From Turnera subulata (taxonomy: Eukaryota > Streptophyta > Magnoliopsida > Malpighiales > Passifloraceae): DNA of 64,000 nt. The position numbers and the translations under genes were made by a program. Of this stretch, positions 11,581-60,626 are shown in pieces. The notes below the pieces were generated by a model. It was not told the DNA's origin and made no database searches. It saw nothing but the letters and a program-made list of their open reading frames with translations. Where the stretch lies: the NCBI GenBank assembly GCA_028386065.3, contig JAKUCV010007341.1, positions 33,325-97,324 on the forward strand, given 5' to 3'. Every line of letters starts with the position of its first letter. The stretch's first letter is position 1.

Positions 11581-12832
11581 CAACCGTTACTTTGGAAGGA
11601 TCCAGAAAGCATTAAAGGATAGGCGCACTATGACTTAGTTTTCAAATATTGTGGGTATGACTCAATAAATCCCTCCACTTATCCCAAGAGACACTACCTA
11701 CTACTTTAAAAAACATGAGAGACAGACACTGACCAATCTACTAATCAACCAAGACAAAGACTATCTTTTGGGTCATCCTACTTCTATACAGGTCCGTATT
11801 TTGGACAACCTTGAATTAAAATCCTTGGTTTTATTTCTTCAAGTTACTTCTTTCTCCAAAATTTGGGAAAAAAAAACTTTTTTGGTTTTTTTTCCAAATC
11901 ATCTTCCTATCTGTGTGTGTATTTTCAATTTTTTTGGTCAATTTCTGTGTATATATATTCGTTTGCAGTCACTACTAACTATGCTTATTCTTTAAAGAAA
12001 GAATACTAAATTTACTACATAATTTGTTTGGTTTTTATTTTTTATAGGTTGGAAAGCTAAGATATTGCAGAAGAGATATCCAAGGTGAGTTTTGTATGTT
12101 AACCTTTTTAGTTTGAGTTTCTCTCAGCCCAAAATTTTGTTTCTGAATAGAGTAAAAACATAAAAAGACCCTCTTTAGATCGGAAGATAAAGAATTAGAG
12201 AGTTTGAGGTTGAACTTTTGATGCAAATCTTTTATAATGTCACTGTTTAATAGCAATCTTTATATTTTTAGTTTTTTCTATAGAATAAAAGTATATGAGG
12301 GTCAGAATGCTTATTAAATTATGGTTGCAAAATCAGCCGTGTAATCAGGCTTTCTTAGGTTATTAAATTTCTTTGCTTCCAAGCTTCTATTCTTTCAATC
12401 TTTATGCTGAAGTGTATGATTTTCTTTGCTAAAATTTTTTCAATTCCAGCCTCTCTATGAGCTTGAAACGCCCCGCCCCGTATTTACTGTACACAGTAAA
12501 CACGTGCCGGAACTGTGACAACCCAACCCAACAAAGCCCGACGGACTGCGTATAAAACAATAAACTGGCCAACGGCCCAATATCAAAAACTGTAAACCGG
12601 CTCTTCGGCCCAACATAGAACTCGTCACCCGAACCCCGGGGACATCAACAACAACCAACTGGCCCAAAGGCCCAAATACAACATATACTCAGCAGAAGAT
12701 TTAACAATATGCACAGCGGAAGACTCTTAACTCACATGACAACATATGCAAAGCCCAATGCAACTAATGGATCCGAGACCTGTCCGAGGGTACGCATCAG
12801 CTTGCCCGGTACGTTCCTGCACTACAAACAAC

Positions 12833-12896
12833 TCATCCTACGGGATGAAACCCCGCAGGCGAGGGGTGAGTCCGAAGCGCTCACCGACGAAAGATA
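12833..12896. promoter_or_regulatory. Conserved double-hairpin block of the LTR (E1 copy)
   Basis: A GGGATGAAACCCCGC segment, a GCGAGG linker and a GGTGAG...CTCACC hairpin, followed by GACGAAAGAT. Almost the same block occurs in E2 (15241-15300, 21316-21375), partly in E3 (32322-32370) and, in reverse orientation, in the Gypsy LTRs (56881-56940, 63058-63115), although surrounding LTR sequence has diverged strongly. This suggests a functional RNA or DNA element. Its role is unknown. Confidence 0.7.
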
Positions 12897-13214
12897 AACA
12901 GTGATATATTCAACCATAATACTTTCGAAATAAACACAATAATCACAACAATAAGCAAAAACAATCACATCACAAGGATACTGCCATAACAACCAACACA
13001 TACTTCACGACAGAGGAATCCAACTCAAACAACACATCAGAGAAAACCAACACGAACAACACGATAGAGGAATCCTACTAAATCATATCAGGCCAAGACC
13101 AAGTGAATACTCAATAATTTTTATTACCAATTTTAACTTCCGGCCCTGTCACTGGACAAGCTAGGGTCGTACCAGGTTATCAATTAATTCCGAATGCCAG
13201 GTCAAAGAACCATA

Positions 13215-13515
13215 CCAAATCTTACCATACCGGGACCACGTCCCAAATTACCAAATCACATCGGGTTCAACAACCCAAATACCAACCGGGATCAACATCC
13301 CAAAACCGGATATTCGGTATATCCGAACCACTGGGTATTTGGTATACCCCAACCACAGGCATCAACATGCCAACCGGATATTCGGTATATCCGAACCACT
13401 GGGTATTTGGTATACCCCAACCACAGGCAACAAGCCAAACGGATATTCGGTATATCCGAACCACTGGGTATTTGGTATACCCTAACCACAGGCAACAACA
13501 TGCCAACCAAATCAA
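13215..13515. repeat. Array of short inverted repeats in the E1 LTR
   Basis: Successive small palindromic units with different stems occur: GGGAC/GTCCC, GGGTT/AACCC, GGGAT/ATCCC, then alternating GGATAT/ATATCC and GGGTAT/ATACCC units in a ~66-bp tandem repeat. Loops are short, often CAAC. Equivalent arrays are in E2, E3 and the Gypsy element. Confidence 0.85.
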
Positions 13516-14905
13516 GTAACCAAACCAAGTAACCGACCATAGCATCCCAGAATTAATTTTCAAACCATCGGGTCGTACCACTACTTCCCACATATATCAT
13601 CATATCATATCAACTCCAATTTCCACTTTCTACTTTCCAATTTCCATTTCTCAATTATCCACAGTCAATAATTTATTCCAATTATCTAATCACAACACTG
13701 TCTACCGACAACAATCACAATTTCCATAACAGTCAAACAATTATCCAACTTCCTATTAGCTCAAGTTATACAACTGACCATTCCATCAACAGTTTCATAA
13801 CATCAACTACTCACAGTCCAACATCAATCACAACACAGTACCCAATAAACCAATAACAGTCATACAACGGTTCAATCAAGCAAACCAACATCTTAGCAAC
13901 AACAGCAACAATAACCGTAGCAGCCAAGTAACCAACACAATTCCATATTGCCAAATATCCATCAACAATACATGTAACACCAATTAATCACAATTAACAG
14001 TTCATCACAATATCCACACGACCAATAGCACAGTCCAACAACAGCAACATCAATAACCATAATAGTCAAATATCCAACAATGACCCTCTCAGTAGTTCAT
14101 TCAAACACACACAACTATCCACATTGACCAGTTCATCAATATTCTCAACACAATATACACAAGTCTATCACAATCCAACAACAGCATCGATAATTCCACC
14201 GCAATCAGGTAACAGTCAATAATTATTCCAACAGAACAATCTAGCAGCAAGATACGCAAACAAAGAAGCACACACAGCATTACGGCACATATCAAGGTTT
14301 ATCTATCCTCACCTTGGCCGATTACTCAACTCCGAAAATAATGACCGGTACGACGCCGGCTCCTCGGGAAACTGCCCGATATCCAAACCTATACAACAAA
14401 ACCACATATATTCACATAAATACACATAAGAGTATGTCATGATGCCAATTTTACGAAATAAACCCATCCCGGTTACTCATCTTTTATTATTATCTTTTGC
14501 AGAAAATATTTACCGTACGTATTTCCGAATATAATTTCGGTACCATACTTTAATTAAAACTCTTTTAAAAACATTCTCATAAATTAATTATATTTTTCCC
14601 AAAATAGTAATTACCATAATTTTCTGGAAAATATAACATATGTATACATAGATATTTCCAAGATATCATATTTAATAAAACTATTTACCATATTATAATT
14701 ACTAAATATTTTTATATTAGGAAAACTATATTCCAGAAAAATTAGTCATATGAAACTACTTCCTAAAACTAAATTCGTATTAATAAATATACCCATATAC
14801 ATTTTCCCAAAGACAAAATATTTTTTTCCCAAACCATTATAATATCGAAATATTATCCAAGTATATATTTTTTTTCCAAAGGTAATCAGTTACCATTTTT
14901 TTTTT

Positions 14906-17900
14906 TGAGACGCCCCGACCCGTATTTACCGTATACAGTAAACACGTGCCGGAACTGTGACAACCCAGCCCAACAAGGCCTAGCATACAGTGTATAAAGC
15001 ATAACCTTGGCTCAACAGCCCAAAAGTATAAACTACAATATGGCCCTACGGCCCAACATCAACAACATCAATAAAAACGAAACTGGCCCAATGGCCCAAC
15101 AACATTAACAATATGCACAGCGGAAGACTTAAACTCACTAACACTGTATGCGACACATGCAATCGATGGATCCAAGCCTGTCCAAGGGAAACATCGCAGC
15201 CTGTCTGGAATGCACTAAGCCTGTACATGAAACAACTCATCCTGCGGGATGAAACCCCGCAGGCGAGGGGTGAGTCCGAAACGCTCACCGACGAAAGATA
15301 AACAGTGATATATTCAACCATAACACTTTCGAAGTAAACCCAACAATCACAACAATAAGCACAAACAATCACATCACAAGGATACTACCATAACAACTGA
15401 CACATACTACACGACAGAGGAATCCAACTCAAACAACACATCAGAGGAAACTCACTAAATCATATCTAAGCCATGACCATCTATACTGACTATACCATAC
15501 ACTAGTTCCCGATCAGGACACTTCAACTCTACCACATGAAGGGTAACCGACCCAGTCTCAACAGACTATACTACACACACTCTGGTCCTGACAGACTATA
15601 CTCAACTAAGGTTCCTCATCGTATGTTGACTTACCGCTACTATGCTTGCTGATCATCCAACCCGGTACCAAAACAATCTCAACATCTCGTGAGCCTCGCT
15701 CACCGGGTAGCCGGCAACCAGCACGGACCATACCCAATCAACATCACAAACCGGTCCCCGGGTAGAATCACAACACAACACGGCAACAGCAGTCACCACA
15801 ACAACTAGTAACCACAACATCAACAATACTCAATATCTGATCAAAACGACAGGAGATACTCATCCAACAATTATCAAAAGAAGCCAACAAGCAAAGGACA
15901 ACTGGCAACCGATGCCCACGACAATGGACTACTCACAACCAACGACAATAATTAACACCCGTAAACTGGCAACCTATGCCGACCACGGTCAACCGACTAA
16001 ACTGAGGACTGACAACATCCAAGGGAATAATCAAGAGACATCATGCAAATGAACATATCACATCATAGCCCAATAAGCAAAAGCACATTTCAAACAACAC
16101 TGAGTCAAGACCAAAAGAATATTTATTATTATTTCCAATTTTAACCTTCGGGCCCGTCACTGGACAAGCTAGGGTCGTACCTGGTTATTAACTAATTCTG
16201 GATGCCAGGCCCCACCATAATCCGGGATCAACATCCCCATATCTCAAATCCGGGATCAACATCCCAATATCTCAAATCCGGGGTCAACACCCCAATATTA
16301 CAAATCCGGGATCAACATCCCAATACCATAAATCCGGGGTCAACACCCCAACCAACAAACCCTCTGGCAAGACACCACAGAACTAGTCTCTAACCATCTA
16401 GTCGTACCACTACTTTCCAAGTGACAATTATATCATCTCAATTCAATTCCAATTCTCATTCCAATTTCCGTTATCCTTTTCCCAATTATCCACAATCAAT
16501 AATCCAACATCATTCTCAACACATCATCCAAGAATCAATATCACAATCCAGACAACAATTTCATATCACCAAACTTTCACATCAAACAATTCAACAATAA
16601 CAAACCGTTCAACAATATTTCCAACACGACATACACAGGACTAACACGTTTCTACAACAGCATCAACAATACCATAGCAATCATGTAACAGTCAACAATC
16701 ATTCCAGCAGATCAAACAAACAACAAACCACAAAACTACACACACAGCATTACGGGCACATATCAGGGTTTATCCATCCTCACCTTGGCCGATTATTCAA
16801 CTCCGGAAATACTGACCGGTACGACGCCGGCTCCTCGGGAAACTGTCCGATATCAAACCTATACACAAAGCAATGTACACACATATAAATGCACATAATC
16901 GGTATACTATGATGCCAATACTACGAATTAATCCCATCCCGATTACTTATCCTTTATTTCCATCTTTTACCAAAAACAATTTACCGTACGTATATCCGAA
17001 TATAATTTCGGTACCATACTTTAATTAAAACTCTTTTCAAATATTTTTCATAAATTAATTATACTTTTTCCAAAATATAATTACCATAACATGATTTTTC
17101 TGAAAATACAATATATACTTATGCTCCCAAAGTATTTGTAGAATGTATCCTTTTCTAAAATAGTTACCATATAGTAATTTGCAAATGTTATTATTCATAT
17201 TATAATTACCTTGGTTTCTTGAAATATAACAAAATAATTACTTCATTTACTTTCACAAAATTACCATATATTTATATTTCCCAGAATAAATAATCCATAT
17301 CCCCTTTCCATAATGTTAGATAGAATAATTATTACCATCACATATATTCTTTTCCAAAGGAAATAATTATGATAAAATAATATTTCTAGAAATTAAATAC
17401 ATATATATTTACATATGTATGTATACTAGAAAGTATTTAACCAAATTTTCCAAATATAATTATAAATCCATTACTGATTACTATTATTATTTTTTATTTT
17501 TTTATTATTTTTATAAACTGGGTTGGGCCATAAATAGTGCTGGACCAGGTCTTGCACAGTACCCAGCCCAGACCCAGCCAGCCCAAACCACAAACCGGCC
17601 CAGAATAATTAGCCCACACTCACCCTGCCCATGACCCGTTCGACTCAGCCCATACCCAGATGTAATCGGGTCAGCACCACACGGATCCGGGTAGCTACCC
17701 GGGTCGTCCAACCCGTTCCACACCAAACTCGACGGTGCTGGCTCGGGCGCAGCAGCTGCAAGGCGAGGTCGGCGTGGCTGTTGTCGTGTGCAGGCGAGGA
17801 GGCGACGGCAGTAGGTGGGTCGTGGCGGCGTCGCTGTGCTGCAAGCGTCGACGGAGGAGGGCGGCGAGCCAAAGAGGAGAGGATAGCCCCGTCGGGTTTC

Positions 17901-18512
17901 CAGCCAAGCGCGGCGCGTCTGGCGGCGAAATCGAGCGGCGACGGTTGCGTCTGGTTGGCGACGGCACGGGGGTGCGATGGTGAGGGTGGTGCCGGTCGTG
18001 GTGGAGGTGGTGGCGGTGAGGTGAAGGTGGCCGGCGGCGGTGCTCCTTCCCTTCTCTTGTTTCTTTTTTTTTTCCACTCTTTTCTTTCTTTCTCTCTTAT
18101 TTTTCTTTTTCTCTCCATTTTTCTCTCTTCTCTTTTTTTTTTTTTCTTCTGCTCTCCTCCTCTCTTCTACTGGCTTTAAACTGGTTTCTTTTTTTTATTT
18201 AATTTTTTATTGTTTTACTATTAAGCATGTGAACATCAAATAATATAAATCGTCCGTATTACGGGCGAATCCGATCCGGACCAGAAAATAACCGATACCT
18301 CCTTAGTTATTTTCCGGTGTGATTTTCCGAGAAATTTCGAAACTCGAAAAATACCAACTTAGGTTCGAAAAATCCACGAGAAAACACTCGGATTCGAAAA
18401 ACGACTCCCGATTTACCTTGAACTAATTACCCAAGATTAATTCAACAGTAAATCACGGTAAAACGACTTTTACAGTCCGGTAAAAATCAAAAATTTTACC
18501 CGGGCTATTACA
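14906..18512 (-). repeat. E2 left LTR (native 3' LTR)
   Basis: A 3607-bp LTR with TG...CA ends, carrying the conserved hairpin block (15241-15300) and the inverted-repeat array (16225-16365). Its right part has a GC-rich stretch (17640-18050) and CT-rich runs corresponding to the native leader. Confidence 0.93.
16225..16365. repeat. Inverted-repeat array, E2 left LTR
   Basis: Tandem ~27-bp units alternate GGGATcaacATCCC and GGGGTcaacACCCC separated by AATATCTCAAATCC-like spacers. The stem changes on both sides while the CAAC loop stays. Confidence 0.9.
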
Positions 18513-18698
18513 GTCTACCCACCTTAAAAAGAATTTCGTCCCCGAAATTCCGTCTTATCTGTGGGTCCTACCACGATAAGATTCTGGCACACTCTGCCGG
18601 ATGTCCAAAATCAACACGAGATACCGCTTATACCCTTAAGCGACATCTCATCAGCTTACAAATACCAAACCTCACAGCTGAGGCATTCACTCTCAGCC

Positions 18699-19076
18699 AT
18701 GGACTCTCCACTTCGTTCTCGAACGACTTCAGACTCCGAGAACAACAGCTACATCGGCGGCACAGCTTTCCCAACAAGCTCCGATGAAGAGCCTCCGAAG
18801 AAGCGGTTCAAGTCCAACATCATCGGTCTGGAGGAGCACATGGTGGTCTCCCCAAAGCGACGGAAGAAGCGTGCCGGCAAGAAAGCTGAGGACAGGAAGG
18901 GCAAGGCGGTAGCTGAAAGCAGCACACCGCAGCAGAAGTTGACGCAGCTGAACGTCTCCCTGAGGAAGGTCAGCTCGGCGGTGGCACAGATCGAACTGGC
19001 GTGCATGGAGCTCTTCCCGCACTTAAGGAATGTTCAACAGCTTGTAAAAGATCTTGAGAAGCAAGTAGCTCCTTAG
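18699..19076 (+). CDS. ORF A (E2 copy): small basic, coiled-coil-like protein, antisense to the retrotransposon
   Basis: 125 residues starting MDSPLRSRTTSD. The reading frame extends further upstream, but the E1 copy begins at this Met, so this start is chosen. Two basic clusters that could be nuclear localisation signals are visible (PPKKRFK near residue 33; SPKRRKKRAGKK near 51). The C-terminal 45 residues (LTQLNVSLRKVSSAVAQIEL to LVKDLEKQV) have heptad-like hydrophobic spacing suggesting a coiled coil. Compared with the E1 copy, 17 codons differ silently and 7 change the amino acid, mostly conservatively, which suggests purifying selection. AATAAA-like signals follow the stop. I do not recognise the family, and function is unknown. 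Confidence 0.75.
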   Translation: MDSPLRSRTTSDSENNSYIGGTAFPTSSDEEPPKKRFKSNIIGLEEHMVVSPKRRKKRAGKKAEDRKGKAVAESSTPQQKLTQLNVSLRKVSSAVAQIELACMELFPHLRNVQQLVKDLEKQVAP

Positions 19077-19806
19077 AGCACTTCTTCTCTGTTGTAACAC
19101 CTTTATTAAAATAAATAAAATGAGTTTCCTTTTTAAATCAAAATTCTCTTATGTTAAGAAATCTTATGTCAAATGGAAAAATAAAACGTCTCAAGGTAAA
19201 ACAAAAATCAATAATAAGAATATAAAATCAAATTTAAAGAAATTTAAAAAAAAAACTCGTTTAACAAAATCGAACAAAAAGAAATTAAACTAAATATGTT
19301 TCATGAACGGTGTTCGTATCGGACGTGAACATCCTCGAATCACGAAACGTTCCGTACAACTAACGGTGACGTCGGTTAACCTCGTGAAAAAATACCCGTT
19401 AACTCGGAAGGCGATGTTCACGGGATCATCCTGTGTCCCTCGAAGGAAACGATACCCACTTGTTCACATTTTCCGCATAAGACAAAACGTCTGTCAAGGC
19501 TCGTATCTCTCCACGATGTCCGAACAGCTGTGAGCTTGTCGCACATGCGCTCTACTCGAAATACGGCCCCATCCGTCTGGCCTCAACGGTCACGGATGCA
19601 AGTGATAAAAGATGCAAGAAAATATAGAAAGACCATAACAAGAAAAGACAAGGTAGCCAGAGCGAAAGAAAATCATGAGTTAGGAAAAGCCTGAAAAACT
19701 CTGGCATGGGTCCGAAAAACGCGTAAAGCAATAAATGCAAGCAATGGTAAAATACAAAAGGCAAGATCTTGAAAATCAAAAACGGTAATCACGCTTCCTA
19801 TAAGAG

Positions 19807-19814
19807 TATAAAAG
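19807..19814 (+). promoter_or_regulatory. TATA box for ORF B (E2)
   Basis: TATAAAAG about 107 bases upstream of the ORF B start is conserved in E1 at 27195-27202, whereas spacer sequence around it has diverged. Further upstream (19355-19385) a conserved GGTGACGTCGGTTAAC stretch contains a TGACG bZIP-type core. Confidence 0.6.
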
Positions 19815-19920
19815 AGTGAGCGGTGATGAGTAAATTATTAAAAGCATTAAAAGCAACAAACACTCAAGCAAACAAAACCACAAAACTCCGAAAAACCAAA
19901 CACAAACACGTCCCAACACA

Positions 19921-20604
19921 ATGCCTGCTCCTTCATCCGTCTTCTTCGTCGAAGGTGCCAATCTTGGCAGAAGGAACCGACTGGCTTACAGCATGGTCAA
20001 CGAACGTGCTGAGGAGCTGCCGAACGAGCTCGGCAGAATGCCACGTCTAGTCTTCGTCGACGAACTCTATTCGTCACGATTCTTCGTCACTCCCATGGAA
20101 GAGGTATTCTACCTAGAGGACCATGGGACACTTAGGACTTCCTACTACGGCTCAGCAAACTCCGTGATGTTCTTCATCTCGGATAGGCTTCAAGAATTCA
20201 ACCTGGAGTCCACTTGCCAGACTGTGGAGCAAGGTGCTTACTACCAGCTCGCAATGACAGCCCAGAGCATACCCAGAATGACTCGGCTACCTCCAACCTG
20301 GCCAAAGGTACGTCTGCTGGTGTGGAACTGCAGAGGAGTTGCAAGACGTGCACAGGAATTCTCACGCACTCTGAGGGACCTGAAGAACCAGTACAAGCCC
20401 AACATGGTTCTTCTGACGGAGACGCAGTGGCAACCACGGGACGACCACGGTCTGATTCCACTCCGATTCCCTCAAGCTAACCGGTTCGAGATTCCTGGCC
20501 AGCACGACAGAGGCGGCATGTGGTTCTCCTGGAGCGACAGGGTCACGGTCAACGTCAACAGTGACGCAAACAGTTTCCGTGTCAACGTCGTTGCAAACCG
20601 TTGA
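19921..20604 (+). CDS. ORF B (E2 copy): novel N-terminal region joined to a partial endonuclease/exonuclease/phosphatase-like segment
   Basis: 227 residues starting MPAPSSVFFVEGANLG. The first ~130 residues match no family I recognise. Residues ~130-215 (RLLVWNCRGVARRAQ, then KPNMVLLTETQW, then DRGGMWFSWSDRV) resemble the beginning of the EEP endonuclease domain of plant L1-type LINEs, with the motif Asn in WNCRG and the Glu in TET. The protein stops before the later catalytic Asp/His motifs, so nuclease activity is unlikely. Between E2 and E1, about 30 codons differ silently and 5 change residue over ~200 codons, strong evidence of selection on the protein. It lies antisense to the LTRs, next to the primer-binding site. 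Confidence 0.75.
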   Translation: MPAPSSVFFVEGANLGRRNRLAYSMVNERAEELPNELGRMPRLVFVDELYSSRFFVTPMEEVFYLEDHGTLRTSYYGSANSVMFFISDRLQEFNLESTCQTVEQGAYYQLAMTAQSIPRMTRLPPTWPKVRLLVWNCRGVARRAQEFSRTLRDLKNQYKPNMVLLTETQWQPRDDHGLIPLRFPQANRFEIPGQHDRGGMWFSWSDRVTVNVNSDANSFRVNVVANR

Positions 20605-20980
20605 ATGTATTTCTGTTTTTATAATTTATCAAAAATCAATGTATTATTTCCCTTTTTATTAAATATAAAATATCCATGTAATATTTCCCTTTTTATAAAT
20701 ATAAAATATCAATGTACCATTTCCCTTTGCAATCAAAATAATTTTTTTTCCCTTTATCTCGAAATATCGGTATTATCAATAATATTTGTATTTTCGCATA
20801 TTATGGCATCATTTACCTCATATGTGTATGTTCCGCGACAGCTGGCGTCCCTCGACTGGATCCATAATGCACTTAACTAAAATGTTATAAAATAATAAAC
20901 AACTGGAGCGAACTATGCAAGCAAGACAACAACACACATAGACTGCCCGACAAGACCTAACGCCCGCGCCGCAACCAAAA
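20605..20980. other. E2 spacer between ORF B and the 5' LTR, including the primer-binding region
   Basis: AT-rich spacer. The last ~25 bases, read on the minus strand from the LTR, begin TTTTGGTTGCGGCGCGGGCG, aligning with TTTGGTAGCGGAGCGGGCAG next to the Gypsy 5' LTR. A 25-codon ORF (20803-20880) exists, but only one copy is available and no claim is made for it. Confidence 0.55.
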
Positions 20981-23900
20981 TGAGACGCCCCGACCCGTAT
21001 TTACCGTATACAGTAAACACGTGCCGGAACTGTGACAACCCAGCCCAACAAGGCCTAGCATACAGTGTATAAAGCATAACCCTGGCTCAACAGCCCAAAA
21101 GTATAAACTACAATATGGCCCTACGGCCCAACATCAACAACATCAATAAAAACGAAACTGGCCCAATGGCCCAACAACATTAACAATATGCACAGCGGAA
21201 GACTTAAACTCACTAACACTGTATGCGACACATGCAATTGATGGATCCAAGCCTGTCCAAGGGAAACACCGCAGCCTGTCTGGAATGCACTAAGCCTGTA
21301 CATGAAACAACTCATCCTGCGGGATGAAACCCCGCAGGCGAGGGGTGAGTCCGAAACGCTCACCGACGAAAGATAAACAGTGATATATTCAACCATAACA
21401 CTTTCGAAGTAAACCCAACAATCACAACAATAAGCACAAACAATCACATCACAAGGATACTACCATAACAACTGACACATACTACACGACAGAGGAATCC
21501 AACTCAAACAACACATCAGAGGAAACTCACTAAATCATATCTAAGCCATGACCATCTATACTGACTATACCATACACTAGTTCCCGATCAGGACACTTCA
21601 ACTCTACCACATGAAGGGTAACCGACCCAGTCTCAACAGACTATACTACACACACTCTGGTCCTGACAGACTATACTCAACTAAGGTTCCTCATCGTATG
21701 TTGACTTACCGCTACTATGCTTGCTGATCATCCAACCCGGTACCAAAACAATCTCAACATCTCGTGAGCCTCGCTCACCGGGTAGCCGGCAACCAGCACG
21801 GACCATACCCAATCAACATCACAAACCGGTCCCCGGGTAGAATCACAACACAACACGGCAACAGCAGTCACCACAACAACTAGTAACCACAACATCAACA
21901 ATACTCAATATCTGATCAAAACGACAGGAGATACTCATCCAACAATTATCAAAAGAAGCCAACAAGCAAAGGACAACTGGCAACCGGTGCCCACGACAAT
22001 GGACTACTCACAACCAACGACAATAATTAACACCCGTAAACTGGCAACCTATGCCGACCACGGTCAACCGACTAAACTGAGGACTGACAACATCCAAGGG
22101 AATAATCAAGAGACATCATGCAAATGAACATATCACATCATAGCCCAATAAGCAAAAGCACATTTCAAACAACACTGAGTCAAGACCAAAAGAATATTTA
22201 TTATTATTTCCAATTTTAACCTCCGGGCCCGTCACTGGACAAGCTAGGGTCGTACCTGGTTATTAACTAATTCTGGATGCCAGGCCCCACCACAATCCGG
22301 GATCAACATCCCCATATCTCAAATCCGGGATCAACATCCCAATATCTCAAATCCGGGGTCAACACCCCAATATCACAAATCCGGGATCAACATCCCAATA
22401 TCACAAATCCGGGGTCAACACCCCAACCAACAAACCCTCTGGCAAGACACCACAGAACTAGTCTCTAACCATCTAGTCGTACCACTACTTTCCAAGTGAC
22501 AATTATATCATCTCAATTCAATTCCAATTCTCATTCCAATTTCCGTTATCCTTTTCCCAATTATCCACAATCAATAATCCAACATCATTCTCAACACATC
22601 ATCCAAGAATCAACATCACAATCCAGACAACAATTTCATATCACCAAACTTTCACATCAAACAATTCAACAATAACAAACCGTTCAACAATATTTCCAAC
22701 ACGACATACACAGGACTAACACGTTTCTACAACAGCATCAACAATACCATAGCAATCATGTAACAGTCAACAATCATTCCAGCAGATCAAACAAACAACA
22801 AACCACAAAACTACACACAGCATTACGGGCACATATCAGGGTTTATCCATCCTGACCTTGGCCGATTATTCAACTCCGGAAATACTGACCGGTACGACGC
22901 CGGCTCCTCGGGAAACTGTCCGATATCAAACCTATACACAAAGCAATGTACACACACATAAATGCACATAATCGGTATACTATGATGCCAATACTACGAA
23001 TTAATCCCATCCCGAATACTTATCCTTTATTTCCATCTTTTACCAAAAACAATTTATCGTACGTATATCCGAATATAATTTCGGTACCATACTTTAATTA
23101 AAACTCTTTTCAAATATTTTTCATAAATTAATTATACTTTTTCCAAAATATAATTACCATAACATGATTTTTCTGAAAATACAATATATACTTATGCTCC
23201 CAAAGTATTTGTAGAATGTATCCTTTTCTAAAATAGTTACCATATAGTAATTTGCAAATGTTATAATTCATATTATAATTACCTTGGTTTCTTGAAATAT
23301 AACAAAATAATTACTTCATTTACTTTCACAAAATTACCATATATTTATATTTCCCAGAATAAATAATCCATATCCCCTTTCCATAATGTTAGATAGAATA
23401 ATTATTACCATCACATATATTCTTTTCCAAAGGAAATAATTATGATGAAATAATATTTCTAGAAATTAAATACATATTTATTTACATATGTATATATACT
23501 AGAAAGTATTTAACCAAATTTTCCAAATATAATTATAAATCCATTACTGATTACTATTATTATTTTTTTATTTTTTTTATTTTTTTTATTTTTTTTATAA
23601 ACTGGGTTGGGCCATAAATAGTGCTGGACCAGGTCTTGCACAGTATCCAGCCCAGACCCAGCCAGCCCAAACCACAAACCGGCCCAGAATAATTAGCCCA
23701 CACTCACCCAGCCCATGACCCGTTCGACTCAGCCCATACCCAGATGTAATCGGGTCAGCACCACACGGATCCGGGTAGCTACCCGGGTCGTCCACCCCGC
23801 TCCACACCAAACTCGACGGTGCTGGCTCGGGCGCAGCAGCTGCAAGGCGAGGTCGGCGCGGCTGCTGTCGTGTGCAGGCCAGGAGGCGACGGCAGTAGGT

Positions 23901-24597
23901 GGGTCGTGGCGGCGTCGCTGTGCTGCAAGCGTCGACGGAGGAGGGCGGTGAGCCAAAGAGGAGAGGATAGCCCCGTCGGGTTTCCAGCCAAGCGCGGCGC
24001 GTCTGGCGGCGAAATCGAGCGGCGACGGCTGCGTCTGGTTGGCGACGGCACGGGGGTGCGATGGTGAGGGTGGTGGCGGTGAGGTGAAGGTGGCCGGCGG
24101 CGGTGCTCCTTCCCTTCTCTTGTTTCTTTTTTTTTTTTCCACTCTTTTCTTTCTTTCTCTCTTATTTTTCTTTTTCTCTCCATTTTTCTCTCTTCTCTTT
24201 TTCTTTTTTTTTCTTTTGCTCTCCTCCTCTCTTCTACCGGCTTTAAACTGGTTTCTATTTTTTTATTTATTTTTTTATTGTTTTACTATTAAGCATGTGA
24301 ACATCAAATAATATAAATCGTCCGTATTACGGGCGAATCCGATCCGGACCAGAAAATAACCGATACCTCCTTAGTTATTTTCTGGTGTGATTTTTCGAGA
24401 AATTTCGAAACTCGGAAAATACCAACTTAGGTTCAAAAAATCCGCGGGAAAATCACGAGCGCGGGAAAACACTCGGATTCGAAAAACGACTCCCGATTTA
24501 CCTTGAACTAATTACCCAAGATTAATTCAACAGTAAATCACGGTAAAACGACCTTTACAGTCCGGTAAAAATCAAAAATTTTACCCGGGCTGTTACA
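20981..24597 (-). repeat. E2 right LTR (native 5' LTR)
   Basis: A 3617-bp partner of 14906-18512, with a conserved block at 21316-21375 and an inverted-repeat array at 22300-22440. Differences from the left copy are scattered substitutions, a ~20-bp indel near 24065 and another near 24450. Confidence 0.93.
22300..22440. repeat. Inverted-repeat array, E2 right LTR
   Basis: Same architecture as 16225-16365: units with GGGAT/ATCCC and GGGGT/ACCCC stems around CAAC. Confidence 0.9.
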
Positions 24598-24602
24598 TTT
24601 TT

Positions 24603-25902
24603 CCTAGGGTGATAATATTCCAGAAAAAAATAGATTTCCATAATATATTCGGAAATATATCAGTTTATGTGTATTATGTATATATATATATTCCATTTTA
24701 TTATTAATTTTATTATCAAGTTATTAAGCAGACTGGGCATGAACAATGGACTATTCAAGCCCATGCCCAAGCCAAAGTTTCGGCCCAACACCCAGCCCTC
24801 ACACATAACCCACAAACACTATCCCACAAATCACAGCCCAAAATCTAGCCCAAACCACAACCCATAAACCCAGCCCACGACCCATACCTACCCAAACGAT
24901 AAACCCAAAGCCCCATTAATCTCACAGCCTATAACTTATGCCCAAGCCCAAAATCAACACAAAACCCATCTCAAAAGCCCACACGACCGTCATCTTCAAC
25001 CTTTGAACTCACCGTGGCAAGGTGGGTTGCAGGCGGCTGGGCACCGACGAAGCGGCAGCTGGACGGCAGCATCAGCGGGAGAGGAGGGTGGAGGTGCTGG
25101 TGGCGGGTCATGGTGGTGTCGCGAAGGAGAAGGAAGAGCGGGCGGACCCGGCGGCAGCTCGCGGGTCGTATTGCGTCGGCTGCGTCGTGCGGTGCTGCGA
25201 CTGCGTCGGGGAGGAGGAGAAGGAGATGCAGGCGACGGTGGGGACGGTTGCAGTGGAAGGCTCGGCGGTGGACACGGGTGGAGGTGGTGGTCGGCTAGCT
25301 TCGTCAGGCGGCAGCGTCGATTGCTGCGTGTGACTCCGGCGGCAGCAGGGGGAAAAAAAAAAGAAGAAGGGAGCAGGGGAGAGGAGGGGAGGAGCTGGCG
25401 GCGCGCTGGCTGTGAGGAGGAAGGAAGGGGATGGAACGGGTTGTTTTATTTTTCTCTGGTTTGTGCCTTGGTGTTGTTGTTTTTTTTTTGCTGGAAGGTG
25501 AAGATTGAGAGAATGATTGCAGGCAGAAATTAAGAAGATCACAGGTGAGCATCACGGGTTACACAGGAAATGAACACTGGTAGCACAGAAAAAGTAGACG
25601 CTGCCCTGCATAATTGAGGCGGCTCCATTATGCAGGGCCGTGTCCAAATCGGACCAGAAATTAATCGATACCCCGTAGTTATTTTCCGGTGTGATTTTCC
25701 GAGAAATTCCGAAACCCGAAAAATACCAACTTAGTCCCGAAAAATCAACGGAAAAATCGCGAGCGCGGGAAAACTCTCGGTTTCGAAAAACGACTCCCGT
25801 TTTACCGTGAATTAATTACCCAAGATTAATTCAACAGTAAATCACGGTAAAACAATTTCTACAGTCCCGGTAAAAATCCAAAATTTTACCCGAGCTGTTA
25901 CA
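24603..25902 (-). repeat. E1 left LTR, second segment
   Basis: Continues the E1 LTR after the E2 insertion and ends ...CGAGCTGTTACA. It contains a GC-rich native leader (25010-25440) and, on the minus strand, a splice-donor-like CACG|GTGAGT at 25011-25012. The adjoining polypurine tract is at 25903-25920. Confidence 0.88.
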
Positions 25903-26045
25903 TTCTACCCCCTTAAAAAGAATTTCGTCCCCGAAATTCCGTCTTCTCCGTGGGTCCTACCACGATAAGCTTCTGGCACACTCTGCCAGGTATCCAAACT
26001 CAACATGAGATACCGCTTATACCCTTAAGCGACATCTCATCCGCT

Positions 26046-26053
26046 TATAAATA
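26046..26053 (+). promoter_or_regulatory. TATA box for ORF A (E1)
   Basis: TATAAATA lies 42 bases before the ORF A start codon. The E2 equivalent reads TACAAATA at the same place, so E1 keeps the better promoter. Confidence 0.55.
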
Positions 26054-26087
26054 CCGAACCTCATAGCTGAGACATTCACTCTCAGCC

Positions 26088-26465
26088 ATGGACTCTCCAC
26101 TTCGTTCTCGAACGACCTCAGACTCCGAGAACAACAGCTACATCGGTGGCACGGCTTTCCCGACAAGCTCCAATGAAGAGCCTCCAAAGAAACGGTTCAA
26201 GACCAACATCATCGGTCTGGAGGAGCACATGGTGGTCTCCCCAAAGCGACGGAGGAAGCGTGCCGGCAAGAAAGCTGAAGACAAGAAAGGCAAAGCGATA
26301 GCTGAAAGCAGCACACCGCAGCAGAAGTTGACGCAGCTGAACGTCTCGTTGAGGAAGATCAGCTCGGCAGTGGCACAAATTGAACTGGCGTGCGCGGAGC
26401 TCTTCCCGCACTTAAGGAACGTTCAACAACTTGTAAAAGACCTTGAGAAGCAAGTAGCTCCTTAG
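26088..26465 (+). CDS. ORF A (E1 copy)
   Basis: 125 residues, the same length and start as the E2 copy, with seven substitutions (such as K/R, S/T and V/I) and no frameshift or stop. Both basic clusters and the C-terminal coiled-coil-like segment are kept. A leader and TATA box precede it, and AT-rich sequence with AATAAA-like signals follows the stop. It is antisense to the E1 LTRs, near the polypurine tract. Function is unknown. Confidence 0.75.
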   Translation: MDSPLRSRTTSDSENNSYIGGTAFPTSSNEEPPKKRFKTNIIGLEEHMVVSPKRRRKRAGKKAEDKKGKAIAESSTPQQKLTQLNVSLRKISSAVAQIELACAELFPHLRNVQQLVKDLEKQVAP

Positions 26466-27194
26466 AGCACTTCTTCTCTGTTGTAACACCTTTATGAAAT
26501 AGATAAAATAAATTTCCTTTTTAAATCGAAATTCTCTTGTGTTAAGAAATCTTGTGTTAAATAGGAAAACAAAACATGTCAAGGCAGATTAAAAATCAAC
26601 CATAAGATTATAAAATCAAATATAAAGAAATCAAAAATTAAAACTCAGTTAACAAAATCAAAACAGAAAGAAATTAAAACAAAACATGTTCCCATGAACG
26701 GTGTTCGTATCGGACGTGAACATCCTCGAATCACGAAACGTACCGTACAACTAACGGTGACGTCGGTTAACCTCGTGAAAAAGATACCCGTTAACTCGGA
26801 AGGCGATGATCACGGGCACGTCCTGTGTCCCTCGAAAGACACGTTACCCACTTGTTCACAATTTTCGCATAAGCCAAAACGTCTGTCAAGGCTCGTATCT
26901 CTCCACGATGTCCGAACAGCTGTGAGCTTGTCGCACATGCGCTTTACTCGAGATACAGCCCCATCCGTCTAGCCTCAACGGTCACGGATGCTTGTGATAA
27001 AAGATGTAAGAAAAATAATGACACCATCAAAAGAAACGCCAAGGTAGCCAGGGCATAAGAAATCGTGAGTCAGAAAAGAGCTGTAAAACACCGGCACAGT
27101 AGCCGAATACGCGCAAAGCATTAAGTAAAGCAACGGTAAAATTCAGAAACAAAATCTTGAAAATCAAAAACGGTAATCACGCTCCCCATAAGAG

Positions 27195-27202
27195 TATAAA
27201 AG
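27195..27202 (+). promoter_or_regulatory. TATA box for ORF B (E1)
   Basis: TATAAAAG 104 bases upstream of the ORF B start matches the E2 promoter in sequence and spacing. Confidence 0.6.
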
Positions 27203-27305
27203 AAGGAGCGGTGAAGTGTAAATCACCAAAAGCAATCAAGGCAACAAAACGCTAAAGCAAAAGAAAACACCACGTTCAAAACAAAACCCCACACGTCCAA
27301 ACAAA

Positions 27306-27938
27306 ATGCCTGCTCCCTCGTCGGTGTTCTTTGTCGAAGGTGCCAATCTTGGCAGAAGGAACCGACTGGCTTACAGCATGGTCAACGAACGTGCTGAAGA
27401 GCTGCCGAACGAACTCGGCAGAATGCCACGCCTGGTCTTTGTCGACGAGCTCTACTCGTCGCGGTTCTTCGTCACTCCAATGGAAGAGGTGTTCTTCCTA
27501 GAGGACCATGGGACACTGAGGACTTCATACTACGGCTCAACAAACTCCGTGATGTTCTTCATCTCGGATAGGCTTCAAGAGTTCAACCTGGAGTCCACTT
27601 GCCAAACTGTGGAGCAAGGCGCTTACTACCAGTTCGCAATGACAGCCCAGAGCATACCCAGAATGACTCGGCTACCTCCAACCTGGCCAAAGGTACGGCT
27701 ACTGGTGTGGAACTGCAGAGGAGTGGCAAGGCATGCACAGGAATTCTCACGTACTTTGAGGGACTTGAAGAACCAGTACAAGCCCAACATGGTTCTTCTG
27801 ACAGAGACGCAGTGGCAACCACGGGACGATCACGGTCTGATTCCACTCCGATTCCCTCAAGCTAACCGGTTCGAGATTCCTGGCCAGAGAGACAGAGGCG
27901 GCATGTGTATACATATTTCGGTACCATACTTTAATTAA
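27306..27938 (+). pseudogene. ORF B (E1 copy), C-terminally truncated by a deletion into the right LTR
   Basis: The first ~200 residues match the E2 copy with five changes. After the DRGGM motif near 27904 the frame runs into LTR sequence (homologous to about 14540) and stops at 27938. The deletion removed the end of ORF B, the primer-binding site and the inner part of the right LTR. Up to that point the frame is open and conserved, so the gene was intact until the deletion. Confidence 0.8.
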
Positions 27939-29604
27939 AACTCTTTTAAAAACATTCTCATAAATTAATTATATTTTTCCCAAAATAGTAATTACCATAA
28001 TTTTCTGGAAAATATAACATATGTATACATAGATATTTCCAAGATATCATATTTAATAAAACTATTTACCATATTATAATTACTAAATATTTTTATATTA
28101 AGAAAACTATATTCCAGAAAAATTAGTCATACGAAACTACTTCCTAAAACTAAATTCGAATTAATAGATATACCCATATACATTTTCCCAAAGACAAAAT
28201 ATTTTTTTCCCAAACCATTATAATATCGAAATATTATCCAAGTATATATTTTTTTCCAAAGGTAATCAGTTACCATTTTTTTTTTCCTAGGGTGATAATA
28301 TTCCAGAAAAAAATAGATTTCCATAATATATTCAGAAATATATCAGTTTATGTGTATTATGTATATATATATATATTCCATTTTATTATTAATTTTATTA
28401 TCAAGTTATTAAGCAGACTGGGCATGAACAGTGGACTATTCAAGCCCATGCCCAAGCCAAAGTTTCGGCCCAACACCCAGCCCACACACATAACCCACAA
28501 ACATTATCCCACAAATCACAGCCCAAAATCAAGCCCAAACCACAACCCATAAACCCAGCCCACGACCCATACCTACCCAATCCATAAACCCAAAGCCCCA
28601 TTAATCTCACAACCCATAACTTATGCCCAAGCCCAAAATCAACACAAAACCCATCTCAAAAGCCCACACGACCGTCATCTTCAACCTTTGAACTCACCGT
28701 GGCAAGGTGGGTTGCAGGCGGCTGGGCACCGGCGAAGCGGCAGCTGGACGGCAACATCAGCGGGAGAGGAGGGTGGCGGTGCTGGTGGCGGGTCACGGTG
28801 GTGTCGCGAAGGAGAAGGAAGAGCGGGCGGACCCGGCGGCGGCTCGCGGGTCGTATTGCGTCGGCTGCGTCGTGCGGTGTTGCGACTGCGTCGGGGAGGA
28901 GAAGAGGGAGGAGGAGAAGGAGATGCAGGCGACGGTGGGGACGGTTGCAGTGGAAGGCTCGGCGGTGGACACGGGTGGAGGTGGTGGTCGGCTAGCTTCG
29001 TCAGGCGGCGGCGTCGATTGCTGCGTGTGACTCCGGCGGCAGCAGGGGAAAAAAAAAAAAGAAGAAGGGAGCAGGGGAGAGGAGGGGAGGAGCTGGCGAC
29101 GCGCTGGCTGTCAGGAGGAAGGAAGGGGATGGAACGGGTTGTTTTATTTTTCTCTGGTTTGTGCCTTGGTGTTGTTGTTTTTTTTTTTTTTGCTGGAAGG
29201 TGAAGATTGAGAGAATGATTGCAGGCAGAAATTAAGAAGATCACAGGTGAGCATCACGGGTTACACAGGAAATGAACACAGGTAGCACAGAAAAAGTAGA
29301 CGCCGCCCTGCATAATTGAGGCGGCTCCATTATGCAGGGCTGTGTCCAAATCGGACCAGAAATTAATCGATACCCCGTAGTTATTTTCCGGTGTGATTTT
29401 CCGAGAAATTCCGAAACCCGAAAAATACCAACTTAGTCCCGAAAAATCAACGGAAAAATCGCGAGCGCGGGAAAACTCTCGGTTTCGAAAAACGACTCCC
29501 GTTTTACCGTGAATTAATTACCCAAGATTAATTCAACAGTAAATCACGGTAAAACAATTTCTACAGTCCCGGTAAAAATCCAAAATTTTACCCGGGCTGT
29601 TACA
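27905..29604 (-). repeat. E1 right LTR, truncated
   Basis: Homologous to 14530-14905 plus 24603-25902 of the left LTR. It lacks the part that holds the conserved block and inverted-repeat array. The uninterrupted sequence near 28261-28300 shows the E2 insertion site without E2. Confidence 0.9.
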
Positions 29605-48715: not shown

Positions 48716-48786
48716 TACAAAATCAAAAGATAGTATTCAACAATTACAAATAGCCCAAAGGACGAACCTTCGGCTCCGCTACCACT

Positions 48787-54938: not shown

Positions 54939-57281
54939 TGTAACAGCCCAGGTAAAAATTTCATTTTTACCGGGACTGTTTAAGTTAAATTATAGTAATT
55001 TACCACTGATTTTAATCTTGGGTAATTAAATTATGGTAAATCGAGCTTAGGATTCTGAAACCGAGCCTTGTCCCACGCTCGGGATTTTTCTGCGGATTTT
55101 AAGGACCAAAGTTGGAATTTTTCCGGGTCCGGGAATCTTAGGAAAAGCCGGGTTTATCCTCGAATTATCGGGCTAGAAATAAAGATAAGTGGGTATACCG
55201 GAAATTTTCTGGTCTAGGTGGGTCACACTTCACATGCAGCATAGTAACTGCATAATTGAAGTTCAATTATTCAGCCGCCTTTTTCCTATTCAGCCTGCGA
55301 ACTACCTATTACACTTGTGATATACCAGTGACTTTTACTGCCTATAAAACTATTCTTCTTCTGCCAACATGCACACCACCATCACCTCTTCATCTTCAGC
55401 CTTCCAGTACCTGCAAAATTCAAACAAAACCATCTGAAAAAGTAGAAAAAAAAAGAAAGAAAAAGGAAAAAAAAAAAAAGAAAACACACACCAGCCACAC
55501 ACGCCGTTGTTTTACCCAACAACCCCTCCTCCATCTTCTTTTTCTTTTCTTTTCTTTTCTTCCACCGCCCCAAGCAACCTCGCCGCCGCCTCCAACCGCC
55601 TCTCCACCTCCTTTCCTTTCTCCTCCTCCCCTCTCTTCTCCTTTCTCTTTTCCTCGCCGGCCACCGCGACCCCCTGCTCCTCCTTCCTCTTCCTCCCTCG
55701 CGTGTCGCGCGCCTGCGCCCCACCTCGACACCGTCGGCCGCAGCGACGCCGCCCGCACTCCCCGCCTCTGCTGCCGCGTCACCGCGACGCCGTGTCGCCG
55801 TCCGCCTTGCCCCTGGTCTTCCGCCGTCGCGCCGTCCCGTCGTCGAGGTGAGCATTGGAGTAACCCGTTTCGCAGCCCGGTGAGGATCTGGGTCGGATCC
55901 TAGGCCACGCGGGTACTGGGCCAAGCCTGGCTCGGGCCTGCAGCTGGCCTGGGTGTTGACTTGGGCCTGGGCTTTGTGATCTGGGCTGGGATGTGGGCCT
56001 GAGTGTATGGGTTAATTGGTTGGGCTGGAATAGTACTTTCCTTTGGGCTGATCCAGAATTAAAAAAATAAAATAAAAATAATAATTATAATCTGGAAAAA
56101 AATAATAAATCAGGATATAGATTGGGAAATAATATTTGGAAATATATATATGTGGTATAAAATAATTGTTAGAGGGTAAATATTTTGGAAAAATATGACT
56201 TCGGGGAATAAAATTTATGGAGGAAAGATAATAAAGCTTATATATGTAGAAATAATAATATTGTGGAAAGAACATACTTATGGAATAATTTTGGAAAGGG
56301 TATTATCAAGGTAATAAAATACCGGAATAATATCCGGGTATAGGAATAAGTATAGTATGGTATCACTTGAAATAAATGGTGAATGATGATAATGGGAATT
56401 AACCGGGGAAGTAACCGAGCCGAGTTAGTATTTAATTTTCGGTATACAGTATTAGCATGGCATTTGCATACCATCTTATGTGTGCATACTACTTGATTGA
56501 CATAGGAGTTGATAACGAGCAATTTGTTGAGGAACCGGACTTGGAATTTGCTGGACATTTCCATAATTGATAATCGGCTAAGGTGGCTCGGATATGCCGA
56601 ATATCCGGTTGGCATGTTGCCTGAGGTTGGGGTATACCGAATACCCAGAGGTTTGGATATACCAAATATCCGGGTTTTGAGATGTGGATTGGTTCTTGAC
56701 CTAGCATCCGGAATTAATTGATAACCAGGTACGACCCTAGCTTGTCCAGTGACGGGGGCCCGGAAGATAAAATTGGTAATAACAATAAATATTCTTTTGG
56801 TCTTGGCTCAGTTTGTAAGATATGTTATTGCTTGTCTGTGATTGCTTTTAAGTATTACGGTTGCTTGCATATCACTGTTTATCCTTCGTCGGTGAGCACT
56901 TCGGACTCACCCCTCGCCTGCGGGGTTTCATCCCGTAGGTTAAGTTGTTTCGTAGTTCAGGTACGACGTTCGATGGCTGTTGCTTTCTCCTCCACCTGAC
57001 TCCGGATCCATACCTCCGCTGCATGTGCATAAAGTCTTCCGCTACTGTGTGATATACAATGCTGTATTGCTGATTTCCTGTGATATATATATTACTGATA
57101 CTATCTGCTGCTAATATTGAGCACTGTGTTGGATTGAATAATGGTCCCTGAGTGTGGGTGACAGTTGTATTTGATGGTTGCTGTTGTATAATATTTGCAC
57201 GTTGTACTGTCTGTTCTATCAATATGAATAGTTTCGGCACGTGTTTACTGTGTTACCGTAAATACGGGTCGGGGCGCTTCA
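54939..57281 (+). repeat. Gypsy 5' LTR
   Basis: TGTAACAGCC...GGGGCGCTTCA. TATAAAAC at 55343-55350 is the likely promoter. A CT/GC-rich leader (55375-55847) ends at a donor-like GAG|GTGAGC at 55848. A shortened inverted-repeat array is at 56585-56680 and the conserved block at 56881-56940. Confidence 0.93.
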
Positions 57282-57306
57282 GTTTGGTAGCGGAGCGGGC
57301 AGTAGG
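57282..57306 (+). other. Primer-binding site region of the Gypsy element
   Basis: GTTTGGTAGCGGAGCGGGCA directly follows the LTR. The core TGGTAGCGGAGC also follows the Copia 5' LTR and differs at two positions from the usual plant initiator-Met site TGGTATCAGAGC. Confidence 0.6.
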
Positions 57307-57360
57307 TCCTTGGGTGTTGCTGTGATCATTTGTGCATAGTTTGTCATGAGTTAGTATAAT

Positions 57361-57570
57361 ATGCATGCATATACATTCTCACATAGGGTAAGACGAATGA
57401 ATCCGGTTGGAGGGAATCAGCATGCTGGAAGTCACCTAGATATCGATGTCATCGCAGGTACCTTTACAGTTTTTGGTTATATTGCATGCAATTTGATAGA
57501 TCCTGGTGCCACACATTCTTTTATCGCTCAAGGTTTTGCTATACAACATAGTGTAAGAAAGAGAGTTTAA
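57361..57570 (+). pseudogene. Gypsy aspartic protease fragment
   Basis: GTFTVFGYIACNLIDPGATHSF: the active-site region, normally D-S-G-A, reads D-P-G-A. The frame ends at 57570, and the linker to RT (57571-57940) is full of stops. It begins only ~80 bases after the LTR, so gag has been lost. Confidence 0.8.
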
Positions 57571-57939
57571 CATGTCCGATGAGGGTTAGGTTACCTGCGG
57601 GCCTATTGGTCAGGTTAACCCATGTGAGCAGAGACGTTATACTTTCGTACGATAACAAGGTATTTCCTGCACGATTGGTTGCGATGAATATGGGAGGATT
57701 CGGCATAATCCTAGGAATGGATTGATTGTCGAGATATAATGTCCTGGTGAACTGTCGGACCAAGGAGGTGCTGCTGACTTTCGATGGTGGACGACAAGTT
57801 TTGGTAACGGGTATTAGGAGAGCTGCTGCTATGCGTAGCATCTCTGCTAACTAGGATTTCGGAATGAAGCCACTTAGTTCAGATGTTTTGTGGAACCACA
57901 TCACAAGTGTAGACACGGGATTCTACCCCGGAGGATATA

Positions 57940-59290: not shown

Positions 59291-59325
59291 GTGTACCCAA
59301 TGTCAGTAATCTACGTAGTCAGATC

Positions 59326-60066
59326 TTGGAAGAAGGTCATACGATGTCATATGCAATGCATCCTGGAAGCACTAAGATGTATCAGAATTTGAGGAGTCAC
59401 TTCTGGTGGCCTCGTATGAAGAAGGGTGTAGCTAAGTATGTTGCAAGATGTCTCACTTGCCAACAGGTGAAAGCTGACCATCAAGCTCTAGCAGGAAAGT
59501 TGAGATCTTTGACAGTGCCAGAATGGAAGTGGGAGATGATCACTATGGATTTTGTGATTGGTTTACCGGTGACTCGGAGGCATCATGATGCTATTTGGGT
59601 CATCGTTGACCGATTAACAAAAACTGCACCTTTTATACCTATCCGCCAAACTGATACCATGGACACATTGGCGGGTAAGTATGTTGCTGAGGTTGTGAGA
59701 CTACATGGGATTCCAAAGTCTATAGTCTCAGACAGGGATCCGAGGTTCACATCACGTTTCTGGAAGAACTTACAAGCAGCGCTAGGGACTAAGTTGAGCT
59801 TTAGCACTGCTTTTCATCCTCAAACAGATGGACAGTCTGAGAGGACTATACAGACACTGGAGGATATGTTGAGGACTGGTGCACTTAACTTCAGCGGGAG
59901 TTGGAATGAGTATCTACCCTTGGTTGAGTTTGCTTATAACAACGGCTACCATTCCAGCATTGGTATGCCACCTTTTGAGGCTCTCTATAGAAGGAAGTGT
60001 AGAAGTCCAGTGTGTTGGGATGAAAAAAGTATGAGACTGATCGTTGGACCGGATCTAGTCCAATAG
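59326..60066 (+). pseudogene. Gypsy integrase core, open frame
   Basis: The zinc region ([11 protein letters not shown], then CLTCQQVK) and DDE core are visible: Asp in WEMITMDF, Asp in SIVSDRDPRF, and the Glu after HPQTDGQSERTIQTLEDMLR. FAYNNGYHSSIGMPPFEALY follows, as in chromovirus integrases. The domain is uninterrupted but is separated by frameshifts and a stop at 60066 from its neighbours. Its function would be cDNA insertion. Confidence 0.9.
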
Positions 60067-60069
60067 ACA

Positions 60070-60590: not shown

Positions 60591-60591
60591 A

Positions 60592-60626
60592 TTTCGGGGA
60601 CGAAATTCTTTTTAAGGTGGGTAGGC
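60592..60626 (+). other. Polypurine tract region of the Gypsy element
   Basis: The stretch immediately before the 3' LTR, containing TTTCGGGGACGAAATTC and TTTTTAAGGTGGGTAGGC, is the plus-strand primer region. On the minus strand, E1 and E2 carry almost the same sequence beside their 3' LTRs (25903-25940 and 18513-18550). Confidence 0.8.

Follow-up and report, generated by a model that had tools for sequence, protein, structure and literature searches.

Two antisense genes under purifying selection in a family of LTR retrotransposons without pol in Turnera subulata

Antisense open reading frames (ORFs) between pol and the 3' long terminal repeat (LTR) are known from the plant Gypsy retrotransposons Grande, RIRE2, Retand and PvRetro13, and the product of gene23 in Grande, a gene driven by a promoter of its own, is nuclear (PMC7264820). 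In Retand with TRP28 antisense ORFs, one or more gag-pol domains are missing from 10 of 63 clusters (PMC11963269). Here we describe E2, an LTR element in a stretch of 64,000 nucleotides of the Turnera subulata genome (assembly GCA_028386065.3, contig JAKUCV010007341.1, positions 33,325 to 97,324 of the forward strand; "the window", to which all coordinates below refer), whose interior carries two genes, ORF A and ORF B. Its family resembles those of Grande, RIRE2, Retand and PvRetro13 in that antisense protein genes have been retained by the majority of copies, but theirs adjoin gag-pol (PMC7264820), whereas A and B are the sole recognisable genes of E2, in which there is no pol match. Retand shares the antisense ORFs, but has LTRs of 315-1194 bp and is not a chromovirus, whereas the LTRs of E2 measure 3.6 kb and its relative carries a chromodomain (PMC11963269).

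The family of E2 is large and consists of what are probably helper-dependent, Tekay/Del-like LTR retrotransposons. We show that LTRs, primer site and polypurine tract have been kept, that pol is absent, that two antisense protein genes take up the interior, and that purifying selection acted on both proteins in those lineages from which copies kept arising. We consider it rather probable that A and B are needed accessory proteins that would aid the element in the nucleus, with gag-pol being borrowed.

Structure and gene content of E2

E2 is an LTR element of 9.7 kb on the minus strand, an orientation given by the LTR ends and by the polypurine tract adjoining the left LTR. Its LTR pair is 97.5% alike over 3640 aligned columns, its target duplication is TTTTT (5 bp), and its interior is exactly 18513-20980 (2468 bases). 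It has inserted within the left LTR of a relative, E1, and a second relative, E3, lies elsewhere in the window. The features of the three elements are as follows.

14906..18512, minus strand: 3' LTR of E2, 97.5% alike to 20981-24597, delimited by LTR ends and the 5-bp duplication
18513..18560, minus strand: polypurine tract of E2 with the preceding GGGGACGAAATTCTTTTTAAGGTGGGTAG block
18657..18664, plus strand: TATA position of ORF A, TACAAATA in E2
18699..19076, plus strand: ORF A of E2, 125 amino acids
19108..19120, plus strand: AATAAA-type poly(A) signals downstream of ORF A, read from sequence only
19806..19814, plus strand: TATA box of ORF B, GTATAAAAG
19921..20604, plus strand: ORF B of E2, 227 amino acids
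20956..20980, minus strand: primer binding site region of E2
20981..24597, minus strand: 5' LTR of E2, delimited by repeat comparison and LTR ends
12464..29604, minus strand: E1, with its left LTR split by E2 and a duplication GAGCT
26088..26465, plus strand: ORF A of E1, intact
27306..27938, plus strand: ORF B of E1, broken off near codon 200, where LTR sequence is joined on
54939..63456, plus strand: E3, a degenerate relative of the gag-pol kind that has reverse transcriptase, RNase H and integrase but neither A nor B

The first-pass annotation, made by a model from the letters of the window, had proposed Gypsy-type LTRs, a primer site and a polypurine tract for E2 and E1, no gag-pol in either, and two ORFs running against the LTRs. 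A non-autonomous element of Gypsy type with two antisense genes was borne out over many copies. The primer binding site region (TTTTGGTTGCGGCGCGGGCG in E2, TTTTGGTAGCGGAGCGGGCG in many aligned copies) is near-identical in E3 and in the gag-pol relative L061, and has no tRNA assigned to it; the polypurine tract region shares 36 identical bases with E3 and is similar in L060. When the reverse transcriptase, RNase H and integrase of E3 were used as queries (gag was not searched as such), no match was found in the loci L001-L059, several of which contain runs of N. Besides the primer site and polypurine tract, ORF A and ORF B alone are recognisable in E2: they are the two long ATG-started ORFs of the interior (cut-off 120 amino acids), both on the plus strand and so antisense to the LTRs of this minus-strand element. 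The LTRs of E2 also carry short tandem blocks, AATCCGGG(A/G)TCAACA(T/C)CCC, at 16219-16351 and 22294-22426.

A TATA-like promoter had been suggested for each ORF. For B the box is conserved: GTATAAAAG stands about 110 bases upstream of the start in 20/20 aligned rows (E2, E1 and 18 loci). For A, the common form is TATAAATA, found in 16 of the 20 aligned rows, with TATAAAA in two more (manual count; L016 is without the region), and the box of E2 itself, TACAAATA, deviates from it. Nor is ORF B intact in E1: it is cut at base 602 (window 27907) and joined to LTR sequence. In L057 the cut falls at base 599 (about position 1829) and is likewise followed by LTR-like sequence, so near-identical a break that it appears to be a recurrent or shared deletion.

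Selection on A and B

In the comparison of E1 with E2 by the method of Nei and Gojobori (NG86), A shows 17 silent and 8 replacement differences and B shows 30.5 and 6.5 over 602 shared bases, close to the earlier counts by eye (17 and 7; about 30 and 5). Neither ORF contains indels between the two elements, and the spacer, 86.3% alike with gaps, does, as had been noted before. Across more copies, codon-model maximum likelihood gave a ratio of replacement to silent substitution rates (omega) of about 0.138 for A (22 rows) and about 0.042 for B (41 rows), after rows covering less than 90% or containing N had been dropped. Pairwise NG86 omega against E2 was 0.08-0.29 for A and 0.01-0.07 for B, the latter at silent divergences (dS) of 0.15-0.73, with 0.14 for the distant copy L018.

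Since most B copies in the NG86, maximum-likelihood and shared-variant comparisons were chosen by protein similarity, which biases omega of B downwards, we also took 10 of the first 15 matches to the non-coding spacer, a sample blind to the proteins. (The A copies of the NG86 comparison were not chosen on A.) This sample left out E2 itself, three loci already in the B list (C2472, C1742 and C6255), and C5695, a partial match, exclusions that bias it, if anything, against intact B. Pooled replacement-to-silent ratios (pN/pS) against E2 were 0.147 for A (10/10 copies) and 0.063 for B (8/10 copies, coverage above 80%), and ascertainment is thus insufficient as the cause of the low omega. Gap openings numbered 10-19 per copy in the spacer and none in the matched parts of B, and two copies have a deletion in A. 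The first-pass annotation had argued that both proteins were used while the lineages diverged, a claim that a ratio near 1 or a majority of broken copies would undo. The claim is supported: omega is far below 1, and purifying selection holds over many copies, the ten chosen blind among them. Of those ten, 8 have a complete A and 5 a complete B; in the other five, B is without its start codon in one, contains two stops in one and is cut short in three, two of these at an N of the assembly.

The frequency of variants separates the history of the sources from that of the copies. Among 53 copies of B, silent and replacement variants stand at 148:14 when shared and 85:94 when confined to a single copy (Fisher p 2e-19); in 12 copies not chosen on B, the counts are 65:6 and 67:52 (Fisher p 1e-7), and in 33 copies of A, 88:35 and 36:63 (Fisher p 2e-7). 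The silent share expected without selection is 28-29%, and the variants counted include codon changes to stop, six in B and four in A. For these counts, A rows with more than 4 gap letters (the 128-amino-acid type described below, and L050) and rows covering less than 55% were dropped. Single-copy variants are probably mostly young, and shared variants probably mostly predate insertion; from the contrast between them, the source lineages were constrained and the inserted copies decay.

In the 518.7 Mb of the genome (7125 contigs), E2-type copies number at least hundreds. Of 8181 first-look candidates for B, at least 150 were scored as matches; these are 97-100% identical, and 7 of 150 have a stop (manual count); the A query gave at least 150 of 3887, with a stop in 5 (manual count), and the spacer query at least 40 of 3305, first-look numbers being loose throughout. 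Eleven loci with a flanking repeat longer than 800 bases (one of which, L024, has its repeat at another spacing) have LTR pairs 96.0-99.6% alike, against the dS of 0.15-0.73 that B shows relative to E2 in those loci and other copies. The E2 family has multiplied recently. These data bear on whether A and B might be domesticated proteins selected for a benefit to the plant. The very low omega would be expected of a host gene, but the many copies in young LTR pairs, with single-copy variants much nearer neutrality, do not amount to one conserved locus, and we regard a host benefit as highly improbable.

Copies also differ in type. L018 carries a second type of B, 83% identical to that of E2, and a search with it yielded at least 150 scored rows, one being the query and the other 149 being 88-93% identical to it; of the 150 listed, 57 have stops and 93 have none (manual count). 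In the twenty loci L010-L029, taken at up to 10 kb and chosen on B, A is complete in 15 (one of 121 amino acids), has a stop in 2, and is wholly or mostly gone in 3 (L016, L025 and L029, with N runs at two of these). A second type of A, of 128 amino acids and 69-73% identical to that of E2, was seen in L013, L018, L026 and L038, and it occurs with B proteins 97-99% identical to B of E2. Because so divergent an A accompanies a near-identical B, A and B appear to have different histories, perhaps through recombination between element lineages. A frame of 1307 amino acids around ORF B in contig C978, considered as a fusion, proved to span a run of N and was ruled out.

The codon pattern speaks to what is selected. 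Diversity at codon positions 1, 2 and 3 of B is 0.014, 0.002 and 0.139, with 0.181 in the spacer (20 rows, 18 chosen on B); summed pairwise differences at the three positions in 40 copies are 4378, 1348 and 29551. In the frame of B pN/pS is 0.045, against 0.19-7.6 in the five other frames, where the longest open run has a median of 97 amino acids. For such ORFs a role of the antisense transcript, as in regulation by double-stranded RNA, has been proposed (PMC7264820), but the concentration of substitutions in B at third positions, and a stop codon that switches between TGA and TAA at one unchanged place among aligned copies, make an RNA-level function barely credible; an antisense non-coding RNA is strongly disfavoured by the codon pattern.

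Several observations on selection count against the explanation that we prefer below. The frame contrast of A is modest (pN/pS 0.214 against 0.295 in one minus-strand frame, with a median longest open run of 107 amino acids in another frame of the region), and in 11 spacer-chosen and window copies its shared and single-copy counts, 24:7 and 29:22, form a weak contrast given here without a significance test. The selection of most B copies by protein similarity has been mentioned, and the maximum-likelihood analysis of B took in the row of E1, which ends in a short foreign stretch. Diversity in A, from an alignment in which its divergent type is represented, is 0.156, 0.133 and 0.307 at codon positions 1, 2 and 3. 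Because the frame contrast is weaker for A, its reading as a gene rests also on its start, its stop and its full-length frame.

The proteins and their presumed helpers

The protein of A has a serine-rich N-terminus, the basic stretches KKRFK and KRRKKR and a coiled-coil-like end (by eye), and no Pfam family scores above its cut-off in A of E2 or E1; from the basic stretches and coiled coil, it may be a small nuclear adaptor. The protein of B has some 130 residues without known relatives, followed by what is possibly the initial part of an endonuclease/exonuclease/phosphatase fold. All ten members of one B alignment match PF03372 (best E 0.0063), the match covering positions 2-84 of the 225 in the profile; ORF B ends soon after, so the domain is not whole. 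WNCRG and the glutamate of LLTET resemble motifs of long interspersed nuclear element (LINE) endonucleases. Because the match stops at profile position 84, B, if it is endonuclease-like, is without the later part of the catalytic site, and it may be a catalytically dead, endonuclease-like binding protein. No homologues outside the Turnera subulata genome were found in the protein collections searched, which may hold few plants, and none in viral contigs; among solved structures none is convincingly similar by sequence (best E 0.33). Absence from such collections carries little weight.

Copy-number control factors such as p22 of Ty1, and the observation that dominant-negative factors are often partial domains, raise the question of whether A and B restrain or tune their helper. 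B does resemble part of a domain, but restraint would bring little benefit to the copy that encodes it, and constraint of this strength would favour a positive role; we think this very unlikely.

Gag-pol relatives of E2 are numerous in the genome, and several have listed open frames of about 1540 amino acids. One of them, C5776, was read at both borders. It has an LTR end that matches the LTRs of E1 and E2 in short blocks of 88-94% identity, the primer site GTTTGGTAGCGGAGCAGGC, about 115 bases and then the frame; on its 3' side a chromodomain and a stop are followed by about 40 bases with a polypurine tract and the start of the next LTR. The listed frame of 1541 codons would occupy 97% of an interior of about 4782 bases, and because the polyprotein fills the interior there is no room in C5776 for A and B. 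A run of N as the source of this frame is disfavoured, since several loci list frames of similar length. In E3, frames before the reverse transcriptase are short, gag seems lost, and the LTR aligns to that of E2 in pieces at 60-87%. The relative L060 has a chromodomain (Chromo, 31.9 bits, cut-off 25.1); E2 itself is without pol. A chromodomain relative with near-identical primer site, polypurine tract and LTR end agrees with the earlier description of E2 as Tekay-like, the clade name Tekay/Del following that description and not a tree.

In the two gag-pol elements examined, C5776 and E3, gene contents are complementary to those of E2. One way to read this is as a split, two-component system in which gag-pol elements and A/B elements need each other, as in multipartite viruses, and in which a near-invariant B has long been selected. 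C5776 without room for A and B, E3 without both, A/B loci without pol matches, and the near-identity of primer site, tract and LTR end between the two classes all fit this, and strong constraint on the protein of a pure parasite would be hard to explain. A benefit to the gag-pol elements, however, would have to be presumed; one intact-looking helper, C5776, has been bounded; and among the matches listed, compared by eye, no integrase match lies less than about 10 kb from an A/B match. We judge mutual dependence unlikely. The nearest pairs among those matches are in C4875 (A at 17796, integrase at 28393) and C2394 (integrase at 5132, B at 15992); they are about 10 kb apart, with A/B upstream and antisense, and are probably neighbours rather than parts of one element.

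It is less likely again that E2 is a deletion derivative of a larger gag-pol element which also carries A and B, the pair then being inherited antisense extra ORFs of an ordinary kind. In favour of such an origin, antisense ORFs occur in all or most copies of Grande, RIRE2, Retand and PvRetro13 (PMC7264820), and in Retrosat2, RIRE3 and RIRE8, whose LTRs measure about 3 kb, gag-pol is preceded by an additional ORF0 (PMC3485330). Against it, neither A nor B is present in C5776 or in the degenerate E3, and TRP28 (PF04195) does not appear in the Pfam results, taken up to an E of 1, for the A and B proteins of both E2 and E1.

On the reading we prefer, that of accessory proteins with borrowed gag-pol, A and B would each have a TATA promoter of their own and be transcribed in the direction opposite to the LTR transcript; the two proteins would jointly aid the DNA or RNA of their own element through a nuclear step, candidates being expression against silencing, nuclear entry and integration; and gag-pol would be supplied by chromodomain elements with near-identical primer site and tract. 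This raises the question of how proteins encoded by an mRNA other than the packaged RNA come to be maintained by selection. Because the mRNA of A and B differs from the packaged RNA, a co-translational preference for the own RNA cannot explain the selection; it is more likely that active source copies are few, or that the proteins act at the locus they come from. Since B is held more tightly than A while the spacer and LTRs drift, its conservation suggests, as partner of B, a host factor or helper protein that is itself conserved, and not a DNA motif that changes. The following count against this explanation: the PF03372 match, which starts at residue 134 in E2, has 15.4 bits (E 0.016), below the gathering cut-off of 24.5; AlphaFold2 models of B are poor, with a mean predicted local distance difference test score (pLDDT) of 39.5 and 44.7, and unusable; reading of both borders covers a single gag-pol element, C5776, whose 1541-amino-acid frame is taken from a search table; and expression, function and any part of A or B in retrotransposition are argued from sequence.

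Elsewhere in the window, a Copia-looking element (by eye; 44687-48715, minus strand) has one open frame of 1342 amino acids and flanking repeats (43975-44593 and 48784-49401) 98.9% alike, and looks recent. An F-box-like gene (by eye) and its partial duplicate (41240-42484 and 50886-51344, minus strand; 76% alike over 833 columns) flank it on either side.

Comparison with known systems

Elements without gag-pol are usually seen as passive parasites whose interiors are dispensable; the E2 family has kept two selected antisense genes. LARD-type elements (large retrotransposon derivatives) have LTRs, a primer site and a tract but no gag-pol, are moved by relatives, and have interiors described as non-coding. 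E2 has the same parts, but its interior holds two selected genes. If A and B do help transposition, a part of the plant LTR machinery is absent from the standard gag-pol list, and the role of the antisense ORFs of plant Gypsy elements could be tested in a minimal element that has those ORFs alone.

VANDAL, another point of comparison, is an Arabidopsis DNA transposon. Its VANC anti-silencing proteins would share with A and B the character of transposon-encoded accessory proteins that help their own family, a likeness of description and not of sequences, but VANC proteins have evolved different target spectra, whereas B is near-invariant (PMC5735166). The extra ORF3s of LTR elements in bdelloid rotifers are alike in that a nuclease-type ORF has been acquired, but they accompany gag and pol and are of DEDDy exonuclease or GDSL esterase types, unlike B (PMC5408684).

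Retrosat2, RIRE3 and RIRE8 share with E2 long LTRs (about 3 kb or more) and an extra ORF (PMC3485330), and Retrosat-2 has been placed in the Tekay/Del row (PMC6317226). Their ORF0, of unknown function, accompanies gag-pol and lies upstream of it; it was not found beyond the grasses, and its evolution is faster than that of gag-pol, with a mean replacement divergence Ka of 0.2574 and silent divergence Ks of 1.6471 (PMC3485330). A and B are set apart from ORF0 by description. In the accessible part of a 2019 domain survey the terms 'antisense', 'extra ORF' and 'additional ORF' do not occur (PMC6317226). The literature searched, which covered few subscription papers, contained no report of the A/B protein pair, nor of a non-autonomous LTR element with solely antisense, selected genes. 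That plant Gypsy elements can carry antisense ORFs is established; what is new here is the pair of A and B in an element that has no other genes.

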